From Candidatus Naiadarchaeum limnaeum (GTDB lineage Archaea; Undinarchaeota; Undinarchaeia; Undinarchaeales; Naiadarchaeaceae), in assembly GCA_014189685.1 (NCBI GenBank), contig DVAB01000001.1, positions 1 to 11,240 on the forward strand: a stretch of 11,240 nucleotides of DNA. The letters are read 5' to 3'. Below the pieces are notes generated by a model. It was not told the DNA's origin, ran no database searches, and saw only the letters and a list, made by a program, of their open reading frames with translations. This document shows, in pieces, positions 1,028 to 11,240 of this stretch. How positions within the stretch are numbered: the stretch's first letter is position 1; each line of letters begins with the position of its first letter. Position numbers and translations under genes: made by a program.

Positions 1028-1169
1028 GACCACTTATTTTTTCTTTTATTTTGTTTTAGCAGACAGCTTTCGCTTTAGCAAATTTTTAGATACTTTGTAA
1101 GAAAAAATAAGTGGGTAGCAAAATCTTGAATTATTTTACAGAGAGATTTTGCCTGACCACTTTTTTCTT
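1028..1169 (+). repeat. Three-arm repeat in the 23S trailer with exclusive hairpins
   Basis: Arm 1 (1030-1045) and arm 2 (1099-1114) are perfect 16-bp inverted repeats beginning CCACTTA and ending TAAGTGG. Arm 3 (1157-1169, CCACTTTTTTCTT) is a slightly shortened direct copy of arm 1, and both are preceded by GA. Arm 2 can therefore pair with arm 1 or with arm 3, but not both. A separate 9-bp hairpin (GCAAAATCT 1118-1126 with AGATTTTGC 1144-1152) lies between arms 2 and 3. This could serve 23S trailer processing or termination. A repeat left by insertion is another explanation. Confidence 0.6.
1034..1060 (+). terminator. T-rich terminator tract after the rRNA
   Basis: This is a run of T-rich sequence (TTATTTTTTCTTTTATTTTG and onward) starting about 20 bases after the estimated 23S end. 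Archaeal RNA polymerase terminates at such oligo-T tracts without needing a hairpin. A second, shorter T6 tract (1161-1166) could act as a backup. Confidence 0.5.
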
Positions 1170-1211
1170 ATAATTTTTAGAATTAGCTTTAGCCTTGCTT
1201 ATTAAGAAATG

Positions 1212-1219
1212 TTTATAAG
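1212..1219 (+). promoter_or_regulatory. TATA box and Shine-Dalgarno site of the HNH gene
   Basis: TTTATAAG lies 32-39 bp before the ATG at 1251. Transcription would start near 1238-1240, just before a strong Shine-Dalgarno sequence GGGAGG (1241-1246). The very short leader with a strong ribosome site differs from the leaderless pattern of most other genes here and fixes the start codon at 1251. Confidence 0.55.
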
Positions 1220-1250
1220 TGTGCGCAAATTATTTTGTTTGGGAGGAAAT

Positions 1251-1667
1251 ATGGCTAGAAATCCATTTAGTATGTCGGGGTACGATCCACTTGGACTACA
1301 GCCTGAGGGAGATAGAAAAAGAAAACCTATTAGCAAAAGTCTGCGCGATCAAGTTTGGTTAAAATACTTTCGTAATAAAACGCAGGGAAAATGTTATTGT
1401 TGTAGGATAAGGCCAATTCATTTTACATATTTCCAGGTAGGGCACAACAAAGCAGTTTCTAGAGGTGGCAAAAATCATATAACTAATTTAAGGCCGATTT
1501 GTGCAACCTGCAATAGGGACATGGGGACAAGGTCAATTGAAGCTTATAGGAAGGAAACTTTTGCTAAACCAACTAAAAGAAAAATTCCTAGGAAAAAATC
1601 AAGAAAAAGGCGCGCTTACAACCCTTTGGAAATTAGAATGAATCAAAGAAATCCTATTTGGGGGTAG
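1251..1667 (+). CDS. HNH endonuclease-like protein
   Basis: This is a 138-residue very basic protein with one HNH nuclease domain. C48-x2-C51 and C84-x2-C87 form the expected zinc-ribbon pairs. GHNKAVSRGG (64-73) supplies the conserved His65 and GG, followed by NLRPIC (79-84) and CNRDMGT (87-93). The usual Asp/Glu before the catalytic His is replaced by Gly (GH). The tail (107-121) is rich in Lys/Arg and probably contacts nucleic acid. An upstream in-frame ATG at 1209 would add 14 residues, but it overlaps the TATA box, and GGGAGG sits correctly before 1251. The gene follows the 23S rRNA and precedes a coupled micro-ORF and a PD-(D/E)XK-like gene. HNH proteins act in homing, restriction, phage packaging and repair; which applies here cannot be decided. 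The strong ribosome site hints at acquired DNA. Confidence 0.85.
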   Translation: MARNPFSMSGYDPLGLQPEGDRKRKPISKSLRDQVWLKYFRNKTQGKCYCCRIRPIHFTYFQVGHNKAVSRGGKNHITNLRPICATCNRDMGTRSIEAYRKETFAKPTKRKIPRKKSRKRRAYNPLEIRMNQRNPIWG

Positions 1668-1668
1668 A

Positions 1669-1746
1669 ATGAAACTTGCAAAATTTAGAACAAAAAGCGG
1701 TAAGAAAGTAACTTTTTTGCATAGTGAAAGAAAGCGCAGAAAATAA
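1669..1746 (+). CDS. Basic 25-residue micro-ORF coupled to the HNH gene
   Basis: The ORF runs from ATG 1669 to TAA 1744-1746 and gives a peptide that starts MKLAKFRTKSGKKVTF and ends in a Lys/Arg cluster (11 of 25 residues are basic). It begins one base after the HNH stop codon. The GGGGG at 1660-1664, which encodes the end of the HNH protein, can serve as its ribosome site, so translational coupling is likely. The peptide has the look of a short beta-hairpin with a basic tail. I do not recognise a family. Its spacing and composition favour a real gene, but length alone gives little statistical support. Confidence 0.5.
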   Translation: MKLAKFRTKSGKKVTFLHSERKRRK

Positions 1747-1784
1747 TCTTTAGGCAATAGAGTATATGGATGTGAAATACGGAT

Positions 1785-2099
1785 ATGAATATTGATATTT
1801 GGGGTTATAGAAAGAATAAGAAGCAGAAAAAGAGAGACGTCCTTGAACAAAATAAAATGAAAGGACGATATGCAGAAGATATGGCTGCTTTGAATTTGGC
1901 AACGCAAGGATATGAAGTTGAAAGAACCGGTCGTGGCCATGACTTCAAAGTTAGAAAAAGGGATATATTGACAGGGAGAGTTACAGAGACAGGATATCGC
2001 GAGATTAAAAGTGGGCGAGCAAGCCTATCAAAATTACAAAGAAAAACAAAAAAGAAAAAAAGTAATTATAGAGTTATGCGCTCCTCATCTCTCTTTTAG
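1785..2099 (+). CDS. Small PD-(D/E)XK nuclease-like protein
   Basis: This is a 104-residue basic protein with the layout of a minimal restriction-endonuclease-like fold. KGRYAEDMAALNLATQGYEV (26-45) gives the first helix with Glu31 and the first strand. GHDFKV (51-56) supplies the catalytic-type Asp53, and YREIKSG (71-77) the E73-x-K75 motif. A basic helix, SLSKLQRKTKKKK (80-92), and a final strand, YRVMR (95-99), follow. This order matches small Hjc/YraN/VRR-NUC-type families, but I cannot name the exact one. The first 25 residues are Lys/Arg rich, and a start at 1857 (ATGAAAGGACG) is possible. No clear ribosome site or promoter lies before 1785, so it is probably transcribed with the HNH gene. 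Metal-dependent nucleic-acid cleavage is the expected activity; the target is unknown. Confidence 0.65.
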   Translation: MNIDIWGYRKNKKQKKRDVLEQNKMKGRYAEDMAALNLATQGYEVERTGRGHDFKVRKRDILTGRVTETGYREIKSGRASLSKLQRKTKKKKSNYRVMRSSSLF

Positions 2100-2134
2100 C
2101 AATTTACAATCTAAGGAATGCAACCTTTTTAAAA

Positions 2135-2143
2135 TTTTAAATA
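2135..2143 (+). promoter_or_regulatory. TATA box for the thioesterase gene
   Basis: TTTTAAATA lies with its end 22 bp before the ATG at 2166 and no Shine-Dalgarno sequence follows. This spacing predicts a leaderless mRNA. Confidence 0.6.
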
Positions 2144-2165
2144 TAGCCTAGTCAATAGTTTATTC

Positions 2166-2660
2166 ATGCCTGAACAAAGCCTTCAAGAAAAATACGCTCC
2201 AAATAGCACTTGTTATGGCTGCGGCCCTGCAAATCCAAAAGGATTACATGTAAAAAGTTTTGTTCAAGGAGAACAAGTTGTTGCTAAGTGGATTCCTGAA
2301 AAATATCACGAGGCTTTTGTAGGATTTTTGAGCGGAGGAATTATTGGGACGCTTTTGGATTGTCATTCAAACTGGGCTGCTGCGTGGTTCATGAAGAAAT
2401 ATCTCGATCTTGATTATTTTCCAGATTCAGTTACTGCGAAATACAGTGTAACTCTCAAGCGGCCAACTCCTACTAATAAAGGAGAGATAGAATTAGTTGC
2501 TAAATCATTCATGCCTGGAAAGATTCGTGATTACGATAGTGTAGAGGTTGAATCAGAACTTAAAGCAGGCGGCAATGTTTGTGCAGTTTTTAATGGAACT
2601 TTTATTAGAATTGAGAATCCAGATCATCCTGCGTATGGGCGCTGGAGCGGAAGAAAATAA
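2166..2660 (+). CDS. PaaI-like hotdog-fold thioesterase
   Basis: This 164-residue protein is close to the usual length for single-domain hotdog proteins. The N-terminus CYGCGPANPKGLHVKSF (17-33) is the characteristic PaaI/YbgC-like opening found in many acyl-CoA thioesterase homologues. GFLSGGIIGTLLDCHSNWAA (53-72) matches the hotdog helix, where the family typically has HGG-x-IATLLD. Here the His of HGG is replaced by Ser (LSGG), while Asp65 and Cys66 are kept. TAKYSVTLKRPTP (90-102) is the central strand. The family hydrolyses acyl-CoA or related thioesters; the substrate here is unknown. The gene has its own promoter and ends just before the 23-bp repeat. It is convergent with the surface-protein operon. 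Confidence 0.85.
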   Translation: MPEQSLQEKYAPNSTCYGCGPANPKGLHVKSFVQGEQVVAKWIPEKYHEAFVGFLSGGIIGTLLDCHSNWAAAWFMKKYLDLDYFPDSVTAKYSVTLKRPTPTNKGEIELVAKSFMPGKIRDYDSVEVESELKAGGNVCAVFNGTFIRIENPDHPAYGRWSGRK

Positions 2661-2667
2661 CTAATTC

Positions 2668-2690
2668 TATATTTTTTTCAAAACATAAAT
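2668..2690. repeat. 23-bp direct repeat, distal copy
   Basis: This copy is identical over 23 bp to 5214-5236. Read on the minus strand (2696 down to 2667) it encodes NEIYVLKKI and then TAG. This is the same C-terminal peptide (EIYVLKKI) that ends the methyltransferase gene 2.5 kb away, with a synonymous Glu codon change just outside the identity. It looks like a residual gene end left outside the surface-protein cassette. Its T7 run (2672-2678) may also terminate the thioesterase transcript. Confidence 0.8.
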
Positions 2691-2691
2691 C

Positions 2692-3156
2692 TCATTGAGC
2701 GAGTGTCTCGGTTTGTTGTTGCGGCTGTTTCTTTTTTAAATAAAAATATGCCGTTGCACTAACCGCGACTATTATGGCTGCCAAAATTACTGCTATAATT
2801 TGAACTGGAAACGTCTTTTTCACTTCTTTTGCTATTGGCAGTGGTATTTGCTGGGCAGTTTCTTTTTTTTCCTCAACCACAGGGGCTGTAACCTGCGGCG
2901 GTGGAGTGCTCGACGCAGCTTTTGTGCCCCTGAGTTTTGTAACAATTATTTTCGCTGAAGTAGAGCTCACAGCATTGCTAACAGTAACTTTCAAGTCATT
3001 CACTCCATCTCTGTCTAAATCAACATATTCCGTGTCCCCAAACTTTGTCTTTACTAAAAACGCGCTTGTTGGCTCTCGCGGCTGCCAAATCAAAATTATT
3101 GCCAGCACTACAAGAAACACCATTACTATTGTTGTTGCATTTTTTCCGTTTCTCAT
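2692..3156 (-). CDS. Two-TM companion of the surface protein
   Basis: This 154-residue membrane protein has a hydrophobic segment at 8-24, an external domain of about 50 residues, a Pro/Thr/Lys linker (80-115), a second TM helix (117-140) and a short KKKQPQQQ tail. The external domain contains VDLDRDGVNDLKVTV (45-59), an Asp-rich loop of the calcium-binding D-x-D-x-D-G type. It resembles the C-terminal module of the upstream surface protein (VGDSIVVDFGIPKG to VTFEIK), so the two probably share a small beta-domain. Its ATG overlaps the upstream stop (ATGA), which indicates tight translational coupling. Since the partner has no C-terminal TM helix, I infer that this protein anchors or docks it. 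Family name unknown. Confidence 0.75.
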   Translation of the reverse strand: MRNGKNATTIVMVFLVVLAIILIWQPREPTSAFLVKTKFGDTEYVDLDRDGVNDLKVTVSNAVSSTSAKIIVTKLRGTKAASSTPPPQVTAPVVEEKKETAQQIPLPIAKEVKKTFPVQIIAVILAAIIVAVSATAYFYLKKKQPQQQTETLAQ

Positions 3157-5183
3157 TTTATCTCAAATGTTACACTTCCGCCATCTATGCTCAACACATT
3201 AATCGTATATGTTTCAGAAACATTGTTGCCTTTCGGAATCCCGAAGTCAACAACAATGCTGTCGCCTACTGAAACAGTATTTTTACTTTCACTGACATTT
3301 GCTGGAATTATAAATGTCTTAGCTTTTTTTGCTGTTGTTTCTCCGCCACCGGTGCTTGTACTTGTCCCTCCAGAGCTTGAAGTAGTAAGTGTTATAGTTA
3401 GCAATTGGCTTGATGAAAAGTTAAACTGCGTGCTGTAGTCATCATAACCTGTTTTGTTCGCAGTTATTGTATAAGGAGTGAAATAAAGATAGCCCGATGT
3501 GGCGTTCTTTGAGCGGTTTCCCAGAAATTGCGTCAAAAGCTGCTGAGAGATATAGCCAGATGAATTTGTTGTTCCTGAGAAACTGCTGCCTGCAGGATTT
3601 TCTGAATCAGCAACAGAGCTTGTGTCGTTTCCAACGATTGTTGTATTGTTTACAGGGTTGCCGTTTGAATCCACAACTCTGATAGCAATCCTGTGCTGGA
3701 CAAATATTTTTCCAGTTGAGTCAGTAGGGATATTAATATCAGATTCGTTAAATGTTGAATTTACTAAGTAGTTGTCACCCCCTGAGTTAGCCGCAAATAT
3801 ATCCGGCGACCCGCTAGCATTTATTGCTGTATCGTTGATAAAAGAGCCCTTAATGTAATCGAAATATATTCCATAATTAGTTGTTCCGCCTGCTGTTGTA
3901 ATATTGTTTGAAGAATAATTAGCGTAGTCTCCACCTATATAGATGCCGTAGCTATTGCCTGTGCCATAGGCCGATATTATATTGTTGCTTATATTACTAA
4001 AATACCCCCTATCATCAATGCCAGAATTACCAGTTCCTGTGCCACGCGCGGATATTGTGTTGTTGACTATAGCGCTAGAATCGCCTCCTATTAAGATTCC
4101 AACATTCAACGATGTGCCGTTTGTTGTTATGGTATTGTTAATTATAGTATCATGTTGGGTTGTAAAATAGACGCCATAATTGTCGCTTCCACTACCATTT
4201 GTGCTTACTATGTTGTTGGTCACAAATGCACCATAAGAGGCTGCTGTGTAAATACCATAACTATTGATGGTGCCATTTGTGCTTACTATATTGCCTGTTA
4301 TATTTATGCTGCTCTCTGCCTCATTTAAAATTCCATAATTGTTCTGGTTATTGCCCCTTGTTGATATGCTGTTGTATGCTATTATGTCATCACCCCGAGA
4401 TCCATCATTGATGCCATAATTGTATCCCCCATCACCATTTGTTGTTATGATGTTGCTGACTATTGTTGAATTTTTAGCAAAGTTGTAGATTCCTGTATTG
4501 CAACAACCGCTGCCATCTGCATTTATCACATTATTTGTTATTGCGAAGTTCAAAGTATTATTAACTCCACTGCCACTATTGCTGTACACACCATAATTAC
4601 TATCAGTGCCGTTTGTGTTTATCACATTGTTTGAAAAATTATTGCTTTGTGCATTTTTATTGGAATATATGCCATAATTATTATTTCCACCATTTGTGTA
4701 TATTGTATTGTTAATAACATTGCTGGAATTTGTTGTATCAAAAAGGACTCCATATCCAGTATTGCCCGAGCCAGTATTGTTTATTATGTTGTTTGCAATT
4801 GTAATATTGCTTTTTGAGGTTGCAGATATTACCGCCATAGATGCAGAAGTGCCGTTATATTTCAACATAAGTCTGCTAATTGTTGTATTATTTGCAGTTA
4901 TGGTTACTGTATTTGAACTTCCATCAAAGAAAACAGTAGGCCATGTCGTATTGTTGGATGTAAGCAAAACACTCTTGTTCGCAGTAACAGTTTCATTGTA
5001 TTCCCTGCTGTCTGTTATCCTAACTTCATCACCATTGCTGGCAAGGTTTATCCCTGTTTGCACTGAAGTAGAATTGCAGCCGGATGAACAGACATCTACA
5101 ACTGCTGCATTAGCATCCTCTATTAAAAGGAATAATAAGAAGCTGAATGTTAGCATTAGCAAATAGGTGATTGTTTTTTTCAT
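3153..5183 (-). CDS. Secreted parallel beta-helix surface protein
   Basis: This 676-residue protein from ATG 5183 (a TTG lies directly before it at 5186) has a signal peptide (about 1-26, ending DANA). From about 130 to 475 there are roughly 13 imperfect repeats of about 26 residues with the core NN-I-x-T/S-x-G followed by N-Y-G-I-Y, the signature of a right-handed parallel beta-helix (NosD/PbH1 type). A region of about 490-610 (IAIRVVDSNGNPVNNTTIVG, later SSGYISQQLL) resembles a carboxypeptidase-regulatory-like Ig fold. A Ser/Thr/Gly linker (STSTGGG) and a terminal beta-module ending VTFEIK follow. N-x-S/T sequons are very abundant, so heavy N-glycosylation is likely. Cysteines are few (VCSSGC near the N-terminus, GCC in a repeat). 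There is no C-terminal TM helix; the overlapping downstream gene supplies TM segments. Likely an adhesin-like or polysaccharide-binding cell-surface protein. Confidence 0.85.
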   Translation of the reverse strand: MKKTITYLLMLTFSFLLFLLIEDANAAVVDVCSSGCNSTSVQTGINLASNGDEVRITDSREYNETVTANKSVLLTSNNTTWPTVFFDGSSNTVTITANNTTISRLMLKYNGTSASMAVISATSKSNITIANNIINNTGSGNTGYGVLFDTTNSSNVINNTIYTNGGNNNYGIYSNKNAQSNNFSNNVINTNGTDSNYGVYSNSGSGVNNTLNFAITNNVINADGSGCCNTGIYNFAKNSTIVSNIITTNGDGGYNYGINDGSRGDDIIAYNSISTRGNNQNNYGILNEAESSINITGNIVSTNGTINSYGIYTAASYGAFVTNNIVSTNGSGSDNYGVYFTTQHDTIINNTITTNGTSLNVGILIGGDSSAIVNNTISARGTGTGNSGIDDRGYFSNISNNIISAYGTGNSYGIYIGGDYANYSSNNITTAGGTTNYGIYFDYIKGSFINDTAINASGSPDIFAANSGGDNYLVNSTFNESDINIPTDSTGKIFVQHRIAIRVVDSNGNPVNNTTIVGNDTSSVADSENPAGSSFSGTTNSSGYISQQLLTQFLGNRSKNATSGYLYFTPYTITANKTGYDDYSTQFNFSSSQLLTITLTTSSSGGTSTSTGGGETTAKKAKTFIIPANVSESKNTVSVGDSIVVDFGIPKGNNVSETYTINVLSIDGGSVTFEIK

Positions 5184-5210
5184 CAATCAATTAGTCATTC
5201 ACCCAGTCTT

Positions 5211-5220
5211 ATTTATATTT
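5211..5220 (-). promoter_or_regulatory. TATA box for the surface-protein operon
   Basis: On the minus strand AAATATAAAT lies 27 bases before the ATG at 5183, predicting a leaderless or nearly leaderless mRNA. The box overlaps the methyltransferase stop codon and one copy of the 23-bp repeat, so the repeat also contributes promoter sequence. Confidence 0.55.
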
Positions 5221-6490
5221 TTTTCAAAACATAAATTTCTCGTTTCACAATTTGGTAATGTTCTCCCTCAACAAGCGGCGCTTTCACCTCAAACCCAATC
5301 TGATTAGCGATTTTTTTAACATCCACTCTTACTTGCCCACGGCCAGTTGTTATTAATGGAGAAATTATTGCGCAAAATTTTTCCGGTTTTAAAATTCTGT
5401 AAATTTCTTTAAGCGCACCTGTGTAAATCGGCCGCAGTTCATTTATGATTTGGTTTGCAAAATCCTGTTTTGGCCGCTGTTTTAAAGTTTTCCCCAAATA
5501 AGGCTCTGTTGCAACAGCATCAACAGAATTATCTGCTAAATTTATTTTGCGCGCATCTCCCTGGTCAATGTCATAGGAAACATTTTTTCTATAACTTTTT
5601 AAAGTCGCTTCCATGTTCGCGGCCGCGAATTTTATTGCGTTTCCATCTAAATCTCGGCCAATAACATGAATATCATTTAAAATTGCCTCTTTCAAAACAA
5701 CTCCGATTCCACAAAACGGATCAAGCAAAATATCTCCTTGTTTCGCGCGTGCCAAATTTATAAGCGTTTTTCCCAGCCGCGTTCGAATTCCAAATTTCCA
5801 ATGTTGCGGCCTGAGCATTTCGTCCCCGCGCTTTTTTTCCCAGTCAATATTATACAAGCCTTCCACAACTCCAAAGTAAGTTTTTTCCTTTCCAATTCCA
5901 ATAACCAATTCTGAATTTTCGCCTGCATAATCGCGCGCAAAACTTTCTGATGGAATTATGAAACTGCTCTCAGAATATTTTGTCATCTGCGGAGTAACAA
6001 TCGAAGGAGTTGGAGCGATTTGCTTTAATTCTGTTTCCAAAAACTCATTTAGTTCTTCCCAATCAGTTTTTTCAATGGCGCTTTTGCTGTAGAAATACAA
6101 ACTTATTCCAATTTCTTTGGGCGCGCCCCGCACCCCTAAATATTTTTTGTCTAAATCGCTTATATCAAATTCAAGCTCAACCGTATTTCTTTTTGCAGCC
6201 TTGATTTTTCGCGCCGCAGCCTTACCTTTTTTCTCGCTTTGCTTTGTGAATGGGCCCAAAAGTTTTCTTGTTTCAATTTCTAAAACAATTTTCGCAATCT
6301 TTATTGTTCCTCCAAGCTCCTCAATCATTTTTTTTGCGTTCAAATTGTGTTCAATCCCATAAACTGCAAAGGGCATCTCTCCCAAAAATTCTCCAATCTC
6401 TTTAAACTCAATGCCTCCGGCTAAAAAATAGCTTTTAATCTCATAAGCCGAAATTTGTGGAAATTTTCCCAAAGCGAATAGATATTTCAT
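5213..6490 (-). CDS. Trm-G10/Trm11-like tRNA (guanine-N2) methyltransferase
   Basis: This is a class I SAM-dependent methyltransferase of 425 residues with an N-terminal region (1-165) in the place of a THUMP-type RNA-binding domain. MLRPQHWKFGIRTRLGKTLINLA (225-247) precedes SAM motif I, LLDPFCGIGVVLKEA (255-269). VIGRDLDGNAIKFAAANM (276-293) follows, then QGDAR (310-314) and the catalytic motif IV, here TEPYLG (328-333) instead of DPPYG. The family methylates N2 of a guanosine in tRNA, typically G10. A GTG 18 bp upstream (6508) extends the frame, but the TATA box at 6514-6524 would start transcription near 6490-6496, past that GTG. ATG 6490 therefore fits a leaderless mRNA. The 3' end is duplicated at 2668-2690. 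It is divergent from the regulator gene, with their TATA boxes about 30 bp apart. Confidence 0.85.
   Translation of the reverse strand: MKYLFALGKFPQISAYEIKSYFLAGGIEFKEIGEFLGEMPFAVYGIEHNLNAKKMIEELGGTIKIAKIVLEIETRKLLGPFTKQSEKKGKAAARKIKAAKRNTVELEFDISDLDKKYLGVRGAPKEIGISLYFYSKSAIEKTDWEELNEFLETELKQIAPTPSIVTPQMTKYSESSFIIPSESFARDYAGENSELVIGIGKEKTYFGVVEGLYNIDWEKKRGDEMLRPQHWKFGIRTRLGKTLINLARAKQGDILLDPFCGIGVVLKEAILNDIHVIGRDLDGNAIKFAAANMEATLKSYRKNVSYDIDQGDARKINLADNSVDAVATEPYLGKTLKQRPKQDFANQIINELRPIYTGALKEIYRILKPEKFCAIISPLITTGRGQVRVDVKKIANQIGFEVKAPLVEGEHYQIVKREIYVLKKI
5214..5236. repeat. 23-bp direct repeat, copy inside the methyltransferase 3' end
   Basis: This copy encodes the last codons (IYVLKKI and stop) of the methyltransferase on the minus strand. 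The identical copy at 2668-2690 lies beyond the surface-protein operon, so 2.5 kb containing exactly two genes is bracketed. Integrative elements often leave such duplicated gene ends as attachment sites, but no integrase is present between the copies. Confidence 0.8.
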
Positions 6491-6513
6491 CTGTTCAATC
6501 TTGTTCACATCCC

Positions 6514-6524
6514 TTTTTATATAT
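6514..6524 (-). promoter_or_regulatory. TATA box for the methyltransferase gene
   Basis: ATATATAAAAA on the minus strand ends 23 bases before ATG 6490, the spacing of a leaderless archaeal mRNA. This decides against the upstream GTG at 6508. Confidence 0.6.
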
Positions 6525-6555
6525 CGTTCATTCTCACTCCCTTTTTATGACAACC

Positions 6556-6563
6556 TTTAAATA
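6556..6563 (+). promoter_or_regulatory. BRE/TATA box for the membrane regulator gene
   Basis: AACC followed by TTTAAATA is a good BRE-TATA pair, 22 bases before ATG 6586. It indicates a leaderless transcript and fixes the start well inside the longer open frame that begins at 6457. Confidence 0.65.
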
Positions 6564-6585
6564 TTTCGCTGCTGTAAAAAACCGC

Positions 6586-7497
6586 ATGAACGCGCGAATC
6601 GGGAGGAGGCTATTAGCTTTAACTTTCTTAGCCTTGTTATTAGCCGCGCCGCAAGCGGTTAAGGCCGCAACAGCAGATTATAATATAGTTGTAAATGACG
6701 CAGGCGATTCTTTAGTTGTTCTAAACATAGTGGGCAGTGGGGAAATTCGCATTCCTTTGCCTTTAGACGTTTCCAATCCCGAAGTTAGGGGGGCGCTTTA
6801 TGTGCCTGCAGAAAATGGAATTGATATTCTAATTGGCCCATCTGGAAAAGCAAGTGTTGCTTATGATACCTCACTTTTAACTGCAAAATCAGGCGGAACA
6901 TGGGTTTTCGATCTCGATTTAGTGAAATGGATGGACAAAAAAGTAACTGTGCTTCTGCCCCCACATGCTGAAATTACTTCCACAACCCCGCGCGGCGCAA
7001 TTGAACAACTTTCGGATAGCAAAAAAGTAACCTGGAATGTGGATCAATATGCTGAAAAAGTTTCTGCCACTTATACTTTGGCCGAGCGCGCTACTTTAAA
7101 ACCAGCTTTGATAAGTCCGATTTTGCTCGGAATTTTAGCAGTTGTGTTCGTTGGAATAATTGCTTTAGCATATGCGCGGCCGGGTTTGCTCCCAAAGCAG
7201 AAAGTAGAAAAGAGAAGATTTATTCAGCGGCCGGCAGTAATTGAAAGAAAATCACTGATAACAAAAGAAAAACAAAATGTTCTAAAAACTTTGACAGAAA
7301 ACGAATTAAAAATTGTAAACAATTTGCTTACAAATTCAGGAAGTATGAAGCGCAACAAGCTGGAGCGGGAAGCCCAGATAGCAAAATCATCCCTTGCTTC
7401 TGCTTTAGCAACTCTTGAGCGCAGAAATGTTGTTCAAATTGATCGGACTTACACTGTTCACACAGTTGAACTATCTGATTGGTTTAGGAAACTCTGA
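6586..7497 (+). CDS. Membrane-anchored winged-helix regulator (COG2512-like)
   Basis: This is a 303-residue protein. Residues 1-27 form a signal peptide or N-terminal anchor (LLALTFLALLLAAPQAVKA). Residues 28-172 are a beta-rich extracytoplasmic domain without cysteines. A TM helix spans 174-196 (ISPILLGILAVVFVGIIALA), and a basic linker follows. Residues 235-303 form a winged helix: LTENELKIVNNLLTNSG, then MKRNKLEREAQIAKSSLASALATLERRNVVQID and a C-terminal wing. This architecture is that of archaeal membrane-associated transcriptional regulators, which are thought to pass an external signal directly to a DNA-binding domain. The frame is open up to 6457, but the added residues are not signal-like and the promoter lies inside them. 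The neighbouring downstream gene encodes a secreted protein and carries a palindrome in its upstream region, so it is a plausible target. Confidence 0.8.
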   Translation: MNARIGRRLLALTFLALLLAAPQAVKAATADYNIVVNDAGDSLVVLNIVGSGEIRIPLPLDVSNPEVRGALYVPAENGIDILIGPSGKASVAYDTSLLTAKSGGTWVFDLDLVKWMDKKVTVLLPPHAEITSTTPRGAIEQLSDSKKVTWNVDQYAEKVSATYTLAERATLKPALISPILLGILAVVFVGIIALAYARPGLLPKQKVEKRRFIQRPAVIERKSLITKEKQNVLKTLTENELKIVNNLLTNSGSMKRNKLEREAQIAKSSLASALATLERRNVVQIDRTYTVHTVELSDWFRKL

Positions 7498-7519
7498 ACA
7501 AGGCTGTTCAAAGCTGTTC
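7496..7519 (+). promoter_or_regulatory. TGTTC/GAACA motif cluster, possible operator
   Basis: GAACA (7496-7500), four bases, then TGTTC (7505-7509) form a perfect 5-bp palindrome. A further TGTTC follows at 7515-7519, exactly 10 bp after the second, one helical turn. The cluster ends about 7 bp before the first TATA-like box of the coiled-coil gene and starts inside the regulator stop codon. Another TGTTC lies at 7455, inside the regulator gene. Confidence 0.4.
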
Positions 7520-7525
7520 TGCTCC

Positions 7526-7556
7526 TAATATAAAAACCGTTCGGAATATAATAAAA
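7526..7556 (+). promoter_or_regulatory. Tandem TATA-like boxes for the coiled-coil gene
   Basis: TAATATAAAAA (7526-7536) and AATATAATAAAA (7545-7556) are both TATA-like. The second would give a start near 7576, almost leaderless for ATG 7580. The first would start near 7557 and include a five-codon ORF (ATG 7566, MEKKE, stop 7581-7583) whose stop overlaps the main ATG. GGAG at 7568-7571 may serve as ribosome site. Confidence 0.45.
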
Positions 7557-7579
7557 CCAGCAAAAATGGAGAAAAAAGA

Positions 7580-8512
7580 ATGAAAGCGAAAAATTTGCTT
7601 GCAATTGCGTTGTTTGCATTAATATTAGTTAGTGCAACTGCAATTACAGCATACGCTGCTCGCGGAGGAAATCCAGGGCCAAACTCAGTATCAGGAAATT
7701 TAGTGGCCGGTGGGAGAGGTTCTGAAAAAGCTATGGAAAAATCCTCTGAAAAAGCTCAAGAAAAGCTTGAGCGCGCAGGGGAGCGCGTAGAGAGAGCTCA
7801 GGAAAGGCTTGCTGGGTTAAAGGAAAGAATAAATGAAAAGTTAGAGGAAAAGAGACAGGAAAGGCTAGCAGCTGCAGAAGAAAATGAATCTAACGAAACT
7901 GAAAATGAAACCGAGGACAATGTAACAAAAATTGCCCCAGGAAGATTGATTTCTCAAGTTCAACAGGCGCGCAGAGAAGTCTGGCAGGAAACAAAGGAAA
8001 TTTTGCGAGAAGCTGGCTATCATGGCCGCGTAAATGAGTTCCAAAGGCTCTTTAATCAATTTACAAAGTCAATGAAGGATGAAATCAGAGCAAAAATCGC
8101 CTCTGGAAATAATACAGACCTGAGCGCAGAAGTTGTTCGAGAAATTGCAAAGCGCGAACTCACAAAACTTAGAGAGGAAGTGCTTGCAAAATTAAACATA
8201 ACTGCTGAAAATGTTACTGACGAGATTGAAAACGCAACTAATGAGACAAATGAAACCGTAAATACTTCAACATTGACACTGATCTCAGCTCAGTTGGCTG
8301 GCGCATCTCCTGAATTCAGGGGAAAACTTTTCATTGCCCTTCAGGACGCAACTCCTGAAGAAAAGGCTGAGATAATTGCACAGCTGAATGAGTTTGCAAG
8401 CTCTGTGGGCGGAGAAGTAAAAGAGCTCAGAATCAAAGAGGGCAACGCAGGAAAGATTAGAGACCAGCTCAAAAAGCGCGGGCACAATATCAGGGAAATA
8501 TTAGCAGGCTGA
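7580..8512 (+). CDS. Secreted, glycosylation-rich coiled-coil protein
   Basis: This is a 310-residue protein with a clear signal peptide (1-26, LLAIALFALILVSATAITAYA). A Gly/Asn/Ser stretch is followed by a highly charged helical region (48-105, with patterns such as SEKAQEKLERAGERVERAQE) that should form a coiled coil. Two acidic Asn/Glu/Thr segments (about 105-120 and 205-235) contain clusters of N-x-S/T sequons (NES, NET, NAT, NIT), so glycosylation is likely. The rest (120-200 and 240-310) is predicted mostly helical, with GRVNEFQRLFNQFTKSMKDE the most distinctive stretch. There are no cysteines and no second TM helix, so it is probably released or held by binding. I do not recognise a family. 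It lies directly after the membrane regulator and may be controlled by it. Confidence 0.75.
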   Translation: MKAKNLLAIALFALILVSATAITAYAARGGNPGPNSVSGNLVAGGRGSEKAMEKSSEKAQEKLERAGERVERAQERLAGLKERINEKLEEKRQERLAAAEENESNETENETEDNVTKIAPGRLISQVQQARREVWQETKEILREAGYHGRVNEFQRLFNQFTKSMKDEIRAKIASGNNTDLSAEVVREIAKRELTKLREEVLAKLNITAENVTDEIENATNETNETVNTSTLTLISAQLAGASPEFRGKLFIALQDATPEEKAEIIAQLNEFASSVGGEVKELRIKEGNAGKIRDQLKKRGHNIREILAG

Positions 8513-8514
8513 AA

Positions 8515-8613
8515 ATGGCAACTAAATCCGTGTTGCAGGTAAGAATGCTTGTGCAGATGATAGCGAACAAAAAAGCTCGTCTAAAAATTAATAGGATTTT
8601 CAAGAAGACTTAA
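8515..8613 (+). CDS. Possible 32-residue basic protein
   Basis: An ATG two bases after the preceding stop opens a 32-codon frame, MATKSVLQVRMLVQMIANKK and onward, ending KKT. It is basic (9 Lys/Arg) with a central amphipathic or hydrophobic helix. Its last codons overlap the TATA box of the RNase P RNA gene. There is no clear ribosome site, but tight spacing would allow reinitiation. It is not similar to ribosomal protein eL41 or another small protein that I know. It may be a chance frame. Confidence 0.35.
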   Translation: MATKSVLQVRMLVQMIANKKARLKINRIFKKT

Positions 8614-8617
8614 ATAC
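8610..8617 (+). promoter_or_regulatory. TATA box of the RNase P RNA gene
   Basis: TTAAATAC is centred 25 bp before the predicted RNA 5' end (8639), the exact spacing expected for an archaeal start. It overlaps the stop codon of the 32-residue ORF. Confidence 0.6.
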
Positions 8618-8638
8618 TATCTTTTACATTATATTCTT

Positions 8639-8996
8639 GAGGAGCATCAGGGCGACTAACGCTTGGACTCGTTGATAATAAAATCGAGTTTTCAAGCGAG
8701 GAAAATCCTCCACCCGCAGCTGCTTGCTAGTAATAGCATGCTCGAGAGGGCATATACTGGTAACAGAAACGATACTCTGCGCGGCTATGCGATGATGTTG
8801 AAAGACCGAGATCACGCAGCAGAGATGAAACGGACTAGTGTGAGTGGGTGCAAGCCAAAATACTTGCCAATGACTGCTAAAGAGGCGAGAAGTAGGCGCT
8901 TAGTAAAATGTCGTCACTCTCTGCATAAGAGAGCAACTCGAATGTGAAATAAAATTCGAGTAAGAGAACAAAAGAGGATTTACTCGATGCTCCTCA
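8639..8996 (+). ncRNA. rnpB: RNase P RNA (catalytic RNA of tRNA 5' maturation)
   Basis: The RNA is about 358 nt and is closed by a perfect 10-bp P1 helix, GAGGAGCATC (8639-8648) with GATGCTCCTC (8986-8995). P3 is CGCTTGGACTCG (8660-8671) with CGAGTTTTCAAGCG (8685-8698). The conserved core is recognisable against E. coli M1: GAGGAAAATCC (8698-8708) for GAGGAAAGTCC, GTAACAGAAACGATAC (8760-8775) for GCAACAGAGAGCAAAC, TTGAAAGACCGAGATCACG (about 8800) for the GTGAAAGGGTGCGGTAAGAGC region, GGGTGCAAGCCAAAATA (8847-8863) for GGAGCAAGGCCAAATA, and ACAAAAGAGGATTTA (8968-8982) for ACAGAACCCGGCTTA. P4 pairs 8703-8710 with 8974-8981. The RNA cleaves 5' leaders from pre-tRNAs with protein partners. Several core positions differ from consensus. 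Confidence 0.9.
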
Positions 8997-9021
8997 CTTT
9001 TACTTTTAAGTAACTTTATTA
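8997..9021 (+). terminator. T-rich terminator after RNase P RNA
   Basis: CTTTTACTTTTAAGTAACTT directly follows P1. Oligo-T tracts of this type terminate archaeal transcription. Confidence 0.45.
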
Positions 9022-9084
9022 ATAAGAGCGAATACTATTTCTCCCCAATGCACTTCCTGCAAAAATCTAAAATGAGTGATAAAA

Positions 9085-10845
9085 ATGATACGCCAGCCAA
9101 TAGTTTCTGTACTCGGCCATATAGACCATGGCAAGACAACCCTACTGGACAGAATAAGAGGGAGTGCAATAGCAGCGAAGGAAGCTGGCTACATAACACA
9201 GCATATTGGAGCAACCGAAGTTCCGATTGATGCTGTAAAAAAAGTCTGCGGCGAACTTTTGGAGCGCATGAATATTTCTCTCACAATTCCTGGTCTGCTT
9301 TTTATTGATACTCCTGGCCACGCGGCTTTTATAAATCTGCGAAAGCGCGGCGGCTCAATTGCGGATATTGCCATTTTAGTTGTTGATGCAAATGAAGGAT
9401 TCAATGTTCAAACTTACGAGTCCTTGAACATTCTAAAAACATACAAAACTCCTTTTGTAGTTGCAGCGAACAAAATTGATTTAGTCCCTGGCTGGCGGCC
9501 AAATAAAAATGAATGTTTTTCCGATTCTTTTGCGAAACAAAAGGATGATGTTCAGCAAACTCTTGATTTGAAAATTTATCAGATTGTTGAAACACTTTAT
9601 AAAAACGGATTTAATTCAGAACGCTACGATCGTGTTAGAGATTTTACAAATCAGATTGCTGTAATTCCAGTGAGCGCAAAAACAGGCGAAGGCGTTCAAG
9701 AACTTTTATCTGTTTTATCAGGATTAGCACAGAAATTTTTGGAGAAACAACTGAAAACAGATGTTAAAGGCACTGGAAAGGGTTCAATTCTGGAAGTGAA
9801 AAAAACAGAAGGGCTTGGAATAACGCTTGATGTAATTCTTTACGATGGCACAATTAGGAAAGGGGATATAATTGTTGTCGGAAGCGCAGAAGAGCCAATA
9901 GTTACAAATGTAAAAGCTCTTCTGAAACCTTTGCCCCTAGAAGAAATAAGAGTTGGGAACAGATTTGAAAATGTAGATGAAGTCTACGCTGCTGCAGGAA
10001 TAAAAATTGCTGCGCCGAATTTAGAAAATGCACTTTCAGGCGCGCCTGTTTATGTTGCGCAGGAGGAATCTGAAATTGGATTATTGAAATCTCAAATAAA
10101 AGCAGAAATTGAGGAAGTTCAAATCAAAACAGAGAAAAAAGGGGTAATTGTTCGCGCAGATACTTTGGGAAGTTTAGAGGCTTTAGTAAAAATGCTTGAG
10201 GATGAAAAAATTACTGTTCGCCGCGCGAGCTTTGGAACTTTATCCCATGCTGATATAAGGGAAGTTGAAGTAGTTAAAAAAGAAAACCCAGTTTATGCCG
10301 CGATTTTCGCGTTTAACATAAAAATTCCAGATGAAATAAAAAAAGAAGCAGAGGATTTTGGAATAAAAATTTTTGCAGGCGAAGTTGTTTATACTTTAAT
10401 TGAGGATTACAGGAATTGGATTAGAGAGGAGGCTGCGCTCTCAAAGGAGGAATTGTTTAAGCGCGTTTCCTTGCCGGCAAAAATTCGAATTAAACCCGGC
10501 TATGTTTTCAGGCAATCTAAACCAGCGATTTGCGGAGTTGAAGTTTTAGTTGGAACAATTAAGCCGCGCGCAATTTTGATAAATGAAAAAGGAGAGGAAA
10601 TCGGAGAGGTAAAAGAAGTTCAGAGGGAAGGCAAACCAATCAGCGAGGCAAAAGGCGGAGAGGATGTTGCGCTTTCAATTCAAGGAGCAATTATTGGACG
10701 AAATGTGAATGAGGGTGATTATCTTTTTACAAGAGTTTCAATTCGCGATGCGCAGCTTTTGAAAACAAAACTTGCTGAGCTTATGAGCGGTGAAGAATTG
10801 GAGCTTTTGCGTGAGATTGAAAAAATTTCGAAGGCTAAAGCTTAA
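9085..10845 (+). CDS. infB: Translation initiation factor aIF5B (IF2-type GTPase)
   Basis: This is a 586-residue GTPase that promotes subunit joining and initiator-tRNA placement on the ribosome. All G motifs are present: GHIDHGKT (11-18), switch I TQHIGATE (38-45), DTPGH (75-79), NKID (129-132) and SAK (197-199). The insertion between G4 and G5 (PGWRPNK, about 135-185) is typical of aIF5B/eIF5B. Domains II (about 230-330), III (about 345-440) and IV (about 460-586) complete the chalice-shaped protein, without the long N-terminal extension of eukaryotes. A GTG at 9076 would add three residues, but GAGTGAT (9074-9080) fits a Shine-Dalgarno site for ATG 9085. No TATA box is at leaderless distance, so a leader or read-through from upstream is likely. 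No intein is present. Confidence 0.95.
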   Translation: MIRQPIVSVLGHIDHGKTTLLDRIRGSAIAAKEAGYITQHIGATEVPIDAVKKVCGELLERMNISLTIPGLLFIDTPGHAAFINLRKRGGSIADIAILVVDANEGFNVQTYESLNILKTYKTPFVVAANKIDLVPGWRPNKNECFSDSFAKQKDDVQQTLDLKIYQIVETLYKNGFNSERYDRVRDFTNQIAVIPVSAKTGEGVQELLSVLSGLAQKFLEKQLKTDVKGTGKGSILEVKKTEGLGITLDVILYDGTIRKGDIIVVGSAEEPIVTNVKALLKPLPLEEIRVGNRFENVDEVYAAAGIKIAAPNLENALSGAPVYVAQEESEIGLLKSQIKAEIEEVQIKTEKKGVIVRADTLGSLEALVKMLEDEKITVRRASFGTLSHADIREVEVVKKENPVYAAIFAFNIKIPDEIKKEAEDFGIKIFAGEVVYTLIEDYRNWIREEAALSKEELFKRVSLPAKIRIKPGYVFRQSKPAICGVEVLVGTIKPRAILINEKGEEIGEVKEVQREGKPISEAKGGEDVALSIQGAIIGRNVNEGDYLFTRVSIRDAQLLKTKLAELMSGEELELLREIEKISKAKA

Positions 10846-10848
10846 ATA
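10842..10848 (+). promoter_or_regulatory. TATA box for the eS6 gene
   Basis: TTAAATA overlaps the aIF5B stop codon and ends 24 bases before ATG 10873. Its position predicts a separate leaderless transcript for eS6 even though the genes are adjacent. Confidence 0.55.
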
Positions 10849-10872
10849 GTGTTTCAAATATCATTCTAAGCC

Positions 10873-11240
10873 ATGGCATTTAAATTAGTTATCTCAGATC
10901 CAAAATCCGGAAAAAGTTTTCAGAAGGAATTCGAGCAAACAGGAATTTTAGTAGGCAAAAAAATCGGAGAAACTTTGAGCGGTGAGGCTTTTGGTTTATC
11001 TGGATATGAATTGCAAATAACAGGCGGCTCTGATAAAATCGGGGTTCCAATGCGAAAAGATGTTGAGGGTGCTGCAAGCAGAAGATTGCTTTTAACAAAA
11101 GGGGTTGGTTACAGAGCGAAATTTAAAATAAAAAAAGATGGCAAGGTTTGGTACGATGCAGAGCCTGCTGGCGCACGAAAAAAGAAAAGACAGCGCGGAA
11201 ACACAATCGGGCCTGGGATGATTCACGTTAAGTTAATAGT
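10873..11240 (+). CDS. rps6e: Ribosomal protein eS6, 5' part (cut by the window end)
   Basis: The first 122 codons of a small-subunit ribosomal protein found in archaea and eukaryotes are present; there is no stop before the window ends. Diagnostic stretches are MAFKLVISDPKSGKSFQ (1-17), GLSGYELQITGGSDKIGVPMR (41-61) and KKKRQRGNTI (103-112), which match the eS6 core including the RGN-type motif. The position after aIF5B is common in archaea. Start ATG 10873 agrees with the TATA box spacing. The missing part is probably short, since archaeal eS6 is about 125-130 residues. Confidence 0.93.
   Translation, partial: MAFKLVISDPKSGKSFQKEFEQTGILVGKKIGETLSGEAFGLSGYELQITGGSDKIGVPMRKDVEGAASRRLLLTKGVGYRAKFKIKKDGKVWYDAEPAGARKKKRQRGNTIGPGMIHVKLI

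Follow-up and report, generated by a model that had tools for sequence, protein, structure and literature searches.

A two-gene surface operon in Candidatus Naiadarchaeum limnaeum is bracketed by a 23-bp direct repeat, TATATTTTTTTCAAAACATAAAT, which occurs exactly at 2668-2690 and at 5214-5236 of the window (the whole stretch of DNA analysed, 11,240 nt) and which can be read, with moderate confidence, as the scar of one old insertion at the 3' end of a gene. The scar is probably genuine, old and currently immobile. We infer insertion as the cause, and likewise which way the event ran and what the two copies do today. In favour of a scar are the uniqueness of the repeat, the in-frame occurrence of EIYVLKKI-stop twice, the intact joined flanks, the conserved C-terminus, the coincidence of the operon boundaries with the repeat, the TATA-box and T-tract context, and published parallels; against it stand the lack of an integrase, a resolvase or Cas1 in the metagenome-assembled genome (MAG), the lack of repeats at sister and fused relatives, and a size of only 2.5 kb. 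The original prediction had reported the repeat at both coordinates, which is exact, and had read the arrangement as integration into a gene 3' end by a cassette that may be mobile. The geometry of an insertion at a gene 3' end, with the gene restored and an old end left in frame with its stop, was borne out, and the mobile cassette was not.

A gene end present in two copies

The gene that ends in copy 1 lies at 5213-6508 on the minus strand and encodes a Trm-G10/TIGR01177-like RNA methyltransferase, with matches to PF01170 (E 2e-11), to the tRNA G10 dimethyltransferase of PDB 6zxv (E 2e-9) and to TIGR01177 (E 7.5e-22). Because the TIGR01177 score of 78 bits is under the family cut-off of 316, the protein was not assigned to that family; by these matches it appears related to TIGR01177 and Trm-G10 and is not filed as a member.

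Copy 1 (5214-5236) is the coding 3' end of this gene, which would be a restored end, and copy 2 (2668-2690) can be read as the old one. On the minus strand, copy 1 with its flanking bases runs CGA GAA ATT TAT GTT TTG AAA AAA ATA TAA and encodes REIYVLKKI followed by a TAA stop at 5213-5215, while copy 2 runs AAT GAG, then the same codons from ATT to ATA, then TAG, and encodes NEIYVLKKI followed by the putative old stop at 2667-2669. C-termini of the REIYV.KK type recur among distant relatives of the methyltransferase (REIYVFKKF, REIYVLSKY and others), and copy 1 is therefore the enzyme's own real end; the repeat had been described as copied from a gene end, and this proved correct. When the operon is removed and the flanks are joined in silico, the methyltransferase end is intact, reading REIYVLKKI with the stop TAG.

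The first mismatch on either side of the 23-mer (GAA/GAG and TAA/TAG) is in both cases synonymous. Ungapped homology between the copies ends at these mismatches, and a gapped extension reaches approximately 33 nt, which alone is not significant. Synonymous mismatches are of the kind seen between diverged gene copies, and copy 2 could once have been the end of a second gene. The main rival to an insertion starts from here: copy 2 would be what remains of a second methyltransferase gene that arose by tandem duplication around the operon and then lost all but its final codons. Long tandem duplications do exist in this genome (L054 10441-12855), but no further methyltransferase homology lies beside copy 2, 23/23 identity is high for the remnant of an old paralog, and the scheme requires a duplication followed by a deletion that happened to end at the stop of the small operon gene. 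Such a history is judged unlikely.

Rarity of the repeat

The search for more copies of the 23-mer that the original prediction had called for returned only the two known sites, both in the window, when the 984-kb MAG was scanned on both strands with up to 3 mismatches; the reversed 23-mer, used as a control pattern over the same sequence and with the same tolerance, gave 0 matches. An order-3 Markov model predicts 6e-6 further copies in 984 kb, and 300 dinucleotide shuffles of window positions 1030-11240 yielded exact direct repeats of 12-17 nt at the longest, against 23 in the real sequence. A chance repeat was discarded on the strength of these figures, and the concern raised in advance that the 23-mer might be common by chance in AT-rich DNA does not hold. 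A widespread terminator or promoter word was discarded as well, there being just two copies genome-wide.

Stretches adding up to approximately 250 kb from the same genome served as the background sample for counts of repeats and promoter words. Elsewhere in this sample, direct repeats of at least 20 nt no more than 8 kb apart were limited to a coding motif of SufB/SufD, a gene duplicated in tandem and a palindromic intergenic element of 21 nt. The latter, ATGCGAGGAAGCTTTGCTTCC, has a palindromic core, is present at two intergenic sites 4.5 kb apart (L062, G000:C13, 5675-5695 and 10224-10244) and looks like a REP-type element.

A repeat of this length could also arise during assembly, if the contig merged an empty chromosomal site and a separate operon-bearing molecule via their common 23-mer. 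The MAG consists of 52 contigs, and 23 bp is near small assembly k-mers. Such a merger would still presuppose an operon-bearing molecule with the 23-mer on it, and hence the unit itself in excised form, and the promoter placement and gene contexts at the locus are normal; an assembly effect is thus considered highly improbable.

The surface operon and a possibly split anchor module

Both operon genes lie on the minus strand and overlap by ATGA (3153-3156). The large gene (3153-5183), identified as an open reading frame, encodes a secreted, repeat-rich surface protein of 676 aa without a C-terminal transmembrane helix of its own. The small gene (2692-3156) encodes, according to profile match and hydropathy, a membrane protein of 154 aa that consists of an N-terminal hydrophobic segment, the second half of an anchor module, a proline-rich spacer and a C-terminal transmembrane helix. 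The edges of the operon coincide with the repeats, the stop of the small gene lying 1 nt from copy 2. Alignment-free structure predictions, of low confidence, gave two helices for the small protein (pLDDT 60) and repeated strands for the large protein (pLDDT 45), which is probably a beta-solenoid.

Relatives of the small protein are found in the MAG at C9, which has the two-gene layout too, at C6, where it forms a fused part of two long proteins, and at C51. The C-terminus of the large protein is 47% identical to that of the C9 sister. The GC content of the operon is that of its neighbours, and although the large gene departs from the usual codon choice, its C9 sister departs at least as far; a foreign origin inferred from composition was dismissed on both counts. 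Judged by sequence, the operon is of a paralog type resident in the lineage.

The anchor module comprises approximately 85 residues with the motif D.DxDGxxDL. A profile of the module, built with both split operons among its sequences and their halves put together, found matches in 4 of the 6 genomes of the phylum and in 0 of 115 others. The module is one contiguous piece everywhere but in the present operon (C23) and C9, and contiguous modules nearly always precede a spacer and a C-terminal transmembrane helix. At the two split-looking sites (window 3153-3156 and G000:C9:13830-14533, the latter L033 5831-6537), two genes overlap by ATGA and the second gene of each pair has its own N-terminal hydrophobic segment; the sisters at C6, C51 and C5 and those in order-mates are contiguous.

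When a profile was built from contiguous modules only, both small proteins matched its second half (E < 1e-8), with E 4e-9 for that of the present operon. The C-terminus of the large protein aligns in register with the first half of the module at E 2.6, which is not significant alone. A claim that the split of the whole module is significant was lowered, because that significance had come from the profile containing the joined halves. The independent profile backs the second half alone, and the idea of an anchor module split across the large and small proteins is therefore half shown by the alignments.

Present context of the two copies

In this genome, the frequency of promoter-like words of the form TTTAWATA has its peak 28-34 nt upstream of start codons. 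A candidate TATA box for the operon, TATAAATA (5210-5217, minus strand), is situated 34 nt before the operon ATG, in agreement with this peak. Its first half is supplied by the final four bases of copy 1 and its second half by the four that come directly after, and it overlaps the stop codon of the methyltransferase, beyond which the operon ATG follows at 30 nt. The C9 sister operon has TATAAATA too, 33 nt before its ATG, and a longer word, ATATAAATAA, is common to the two operons and has only four occurrences in the sample. Copy 2 contains a T7 tract at 2672-2678, 11 nt past the stop of the neighbouring thioesterase gene, and just 5 of the 228 gene ends sampled are followed by a T run of at least 7; the tract is likely the thioesterase terminator. 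By its position, copy 1 appears to serve now as coding end and as part of the operon promoter, and use may be what maintains both copies, the first in these two roles and the second as a terminator.

That each copy has a plausible role, as a TATA box or a T tract, is also what would be seen if two AT-rich promoter or terminator sequences had become alike by convergence. However, the common part includes the coding bases ATTTATGTTTTG, which neither role needs, copy 2 has no complete TATA box, and the vanishingly small number of further copies expected genome-wide speaks against independence; an independent origin of the two copies is close to excluded.

Mobility and the neighbouring genes

Neither tyrosine recombinases (PF00589), serine recombinases (PF00239) nor Cas1 were found in the approximately 98%-complete MAG, by searches that were positive in 14 of 14, 10 of 14 and 9 of 14 control genomes, respectively. 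With no PF00589 match, the MAG has no recognisable XerA. Within the 2.5-kb operon unit there is no mobility gene, no inverted repeat in the window has arms at both operon boundaries, and no flanking repeats of at least 11 nt were detected at the C9, C6 and C51 relatives. Neither the 23-mer nor the large protein nor the methyltransferase had a match on viral contigs, and a PHROG search with the operon gave no hit; a viral origin of the cargo was rejected on these grounds.

If the operon were a living cassette, still moved in trans between the 23-bp sites by the recombinase of another element and thereby swapping surface proteins, the att-like geometry and the different large protein of the C9 sister operon would be accounted for. 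But such movement is difficult to reconcile with a MAG that contains no tyrosine or serine recombinase, with a genome that has just two 23-mers and no repeats at C9, and with viral contigs on which both the 23-mer and relatives of the large protein are missing, and it is regarded as improbable. The earlier proposal of a mobile cassette for swapping surface proteins is not supported by this evidence, to which are added the missing Cas1, the resident paralog type of the operon, the C6 and C51 relatives without flanking repeats, and the lack of a third 23-mer in the genome or of any on viral contigs. Since neither kind of enzyme searched for is present in the genome today, the operon is probably fixed.

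Beyond copy 2, and convergent to the operon, lies a gene for a hotdog-fold thioesterase (2166-2660, plus strand), which matches PDB 2prx, 'Thioesterase superfamily protein', at E 1.1e-19. The thioesterase is sporadic, being found in 6 of 297 archaeal genomes, and is absent from all order-mates; it may therefore itself be a newcomer. In the 3.3-3.5 kb around its relatives elsewhere, no methyltransferase of this type is present, and a scan of the contigs of named relatives for the locus returned only a distant bacterial methyltransferase. The suggestion that thioesterase and methyltransferase were ancestral convergent neighbours is a guess.

Between the 23S rRNA and the thioesterase gene lie an HNH nuclease gene (1251-1667, plus strand) and a small possible PD-(D/E)XK nuclease gene (1785-2099, plus strand), the latter with a weak PADLOC match to TmtA (E 1.6e-4). 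Positions 1-1015 of the window belong to an archaeal 23S rRNA, of which they form the 3' part, and an archaeal RNase P RNA lies at 8640-8994 (plus strand; RF00373, 129.5 bits).

Comparison with known systems

In Thaumarchaeota, 14 of 68 mapped elements are located in the 3' regions of protein-coding genes, att sites are mostly < 26 bp, and in one case a TAA brought by the element took the place of a TAG stop (PMC6563490). The present locus resembles archaeal elements in the 3' ends of protein genes, such as NitEve-E2 of Nitrososphaera, in its direct repeat of < 26 bp over a gene end and in an apparently restored gene whose stop would have changed from TAG to TAA (PMC6563490). Unlike these elements, it is 2.5 kb in length, contains two surface genes, and lacks an integrase of its own, with none found elsewhere in the genome either. 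With respect to attL/attR features, direct repeats are present at both ends, one of them the target gene 3' end, and an integrase gene was found neither in the element nor MAG-wide (PF00589, PF00239). Published work on archaeal integrated elements relies on empty-site comparison (PMC6563490); the empty site considered here is the one made by joining the flanks in silico. Because the integrase is missing, the case is not filed among integrated elements; it is filed only as the scar of an insertion at a gene 3' end, which is a known kind.

Target duplications of casposons are 14-15 bp, and the 23 bp observed here is longer. As with transposons that duplicate their target site in gene ends, casposons among them (PMC6563490), a staggered cut with fill-in could give rise to a duplicated target at a gene 3' end. 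Unlike casposons, the locus shows no Cas1 MAG-wide and, in the window, no terminal inverted repeats beside the two copies.

In layout only, the operon is like the two-component S-layer of Sulfolobus, SlaA/SlaB, in combining a large secreted protein with a membrane partner, which in that system is membrane-bound and has an extracellular domain and a C-terminal membrane segment (PMC10903991). It differs in that no sequence relation to SlaA/SlaB is shown and in that its partner seems to carry half an anchor module, which in sister proteins lies within a single chain.

Proposed insertion and its implications

The insertion favoured here would have brought a two-gene surface operon of lineage-resident type, possibly a copy of the C9 sister, into the last 23-28 bp of the methyltransferase gene, either by integrase-type recombination between matching 23-bp sites or through a staggered break with fill-in. 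The event would have duplicated the methyltransferase end, such that the gene keeps its full C-terminus and a TAA stop lying in the operon TATA box, and would have stranded the old end with TAG beyond the operon, beside the thioesterase. A more far-reaching idea, considered quite improbable, would make the operon a transferable unit for surface display, in which a secreted beta-solenoid is held via a split anchor that is completed on its membrane partner; the unit would have been inserted precisely such that the stop of the target falls in its TATA box.

If the insertion reading is true, a surface operon can enter a small archaeal genome in which no site-specific recombinase was found, and can do so without harming its neighbour. 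The possible split anchor, in turn, suggests how large surface proteins might be held non-covalently by archaea.
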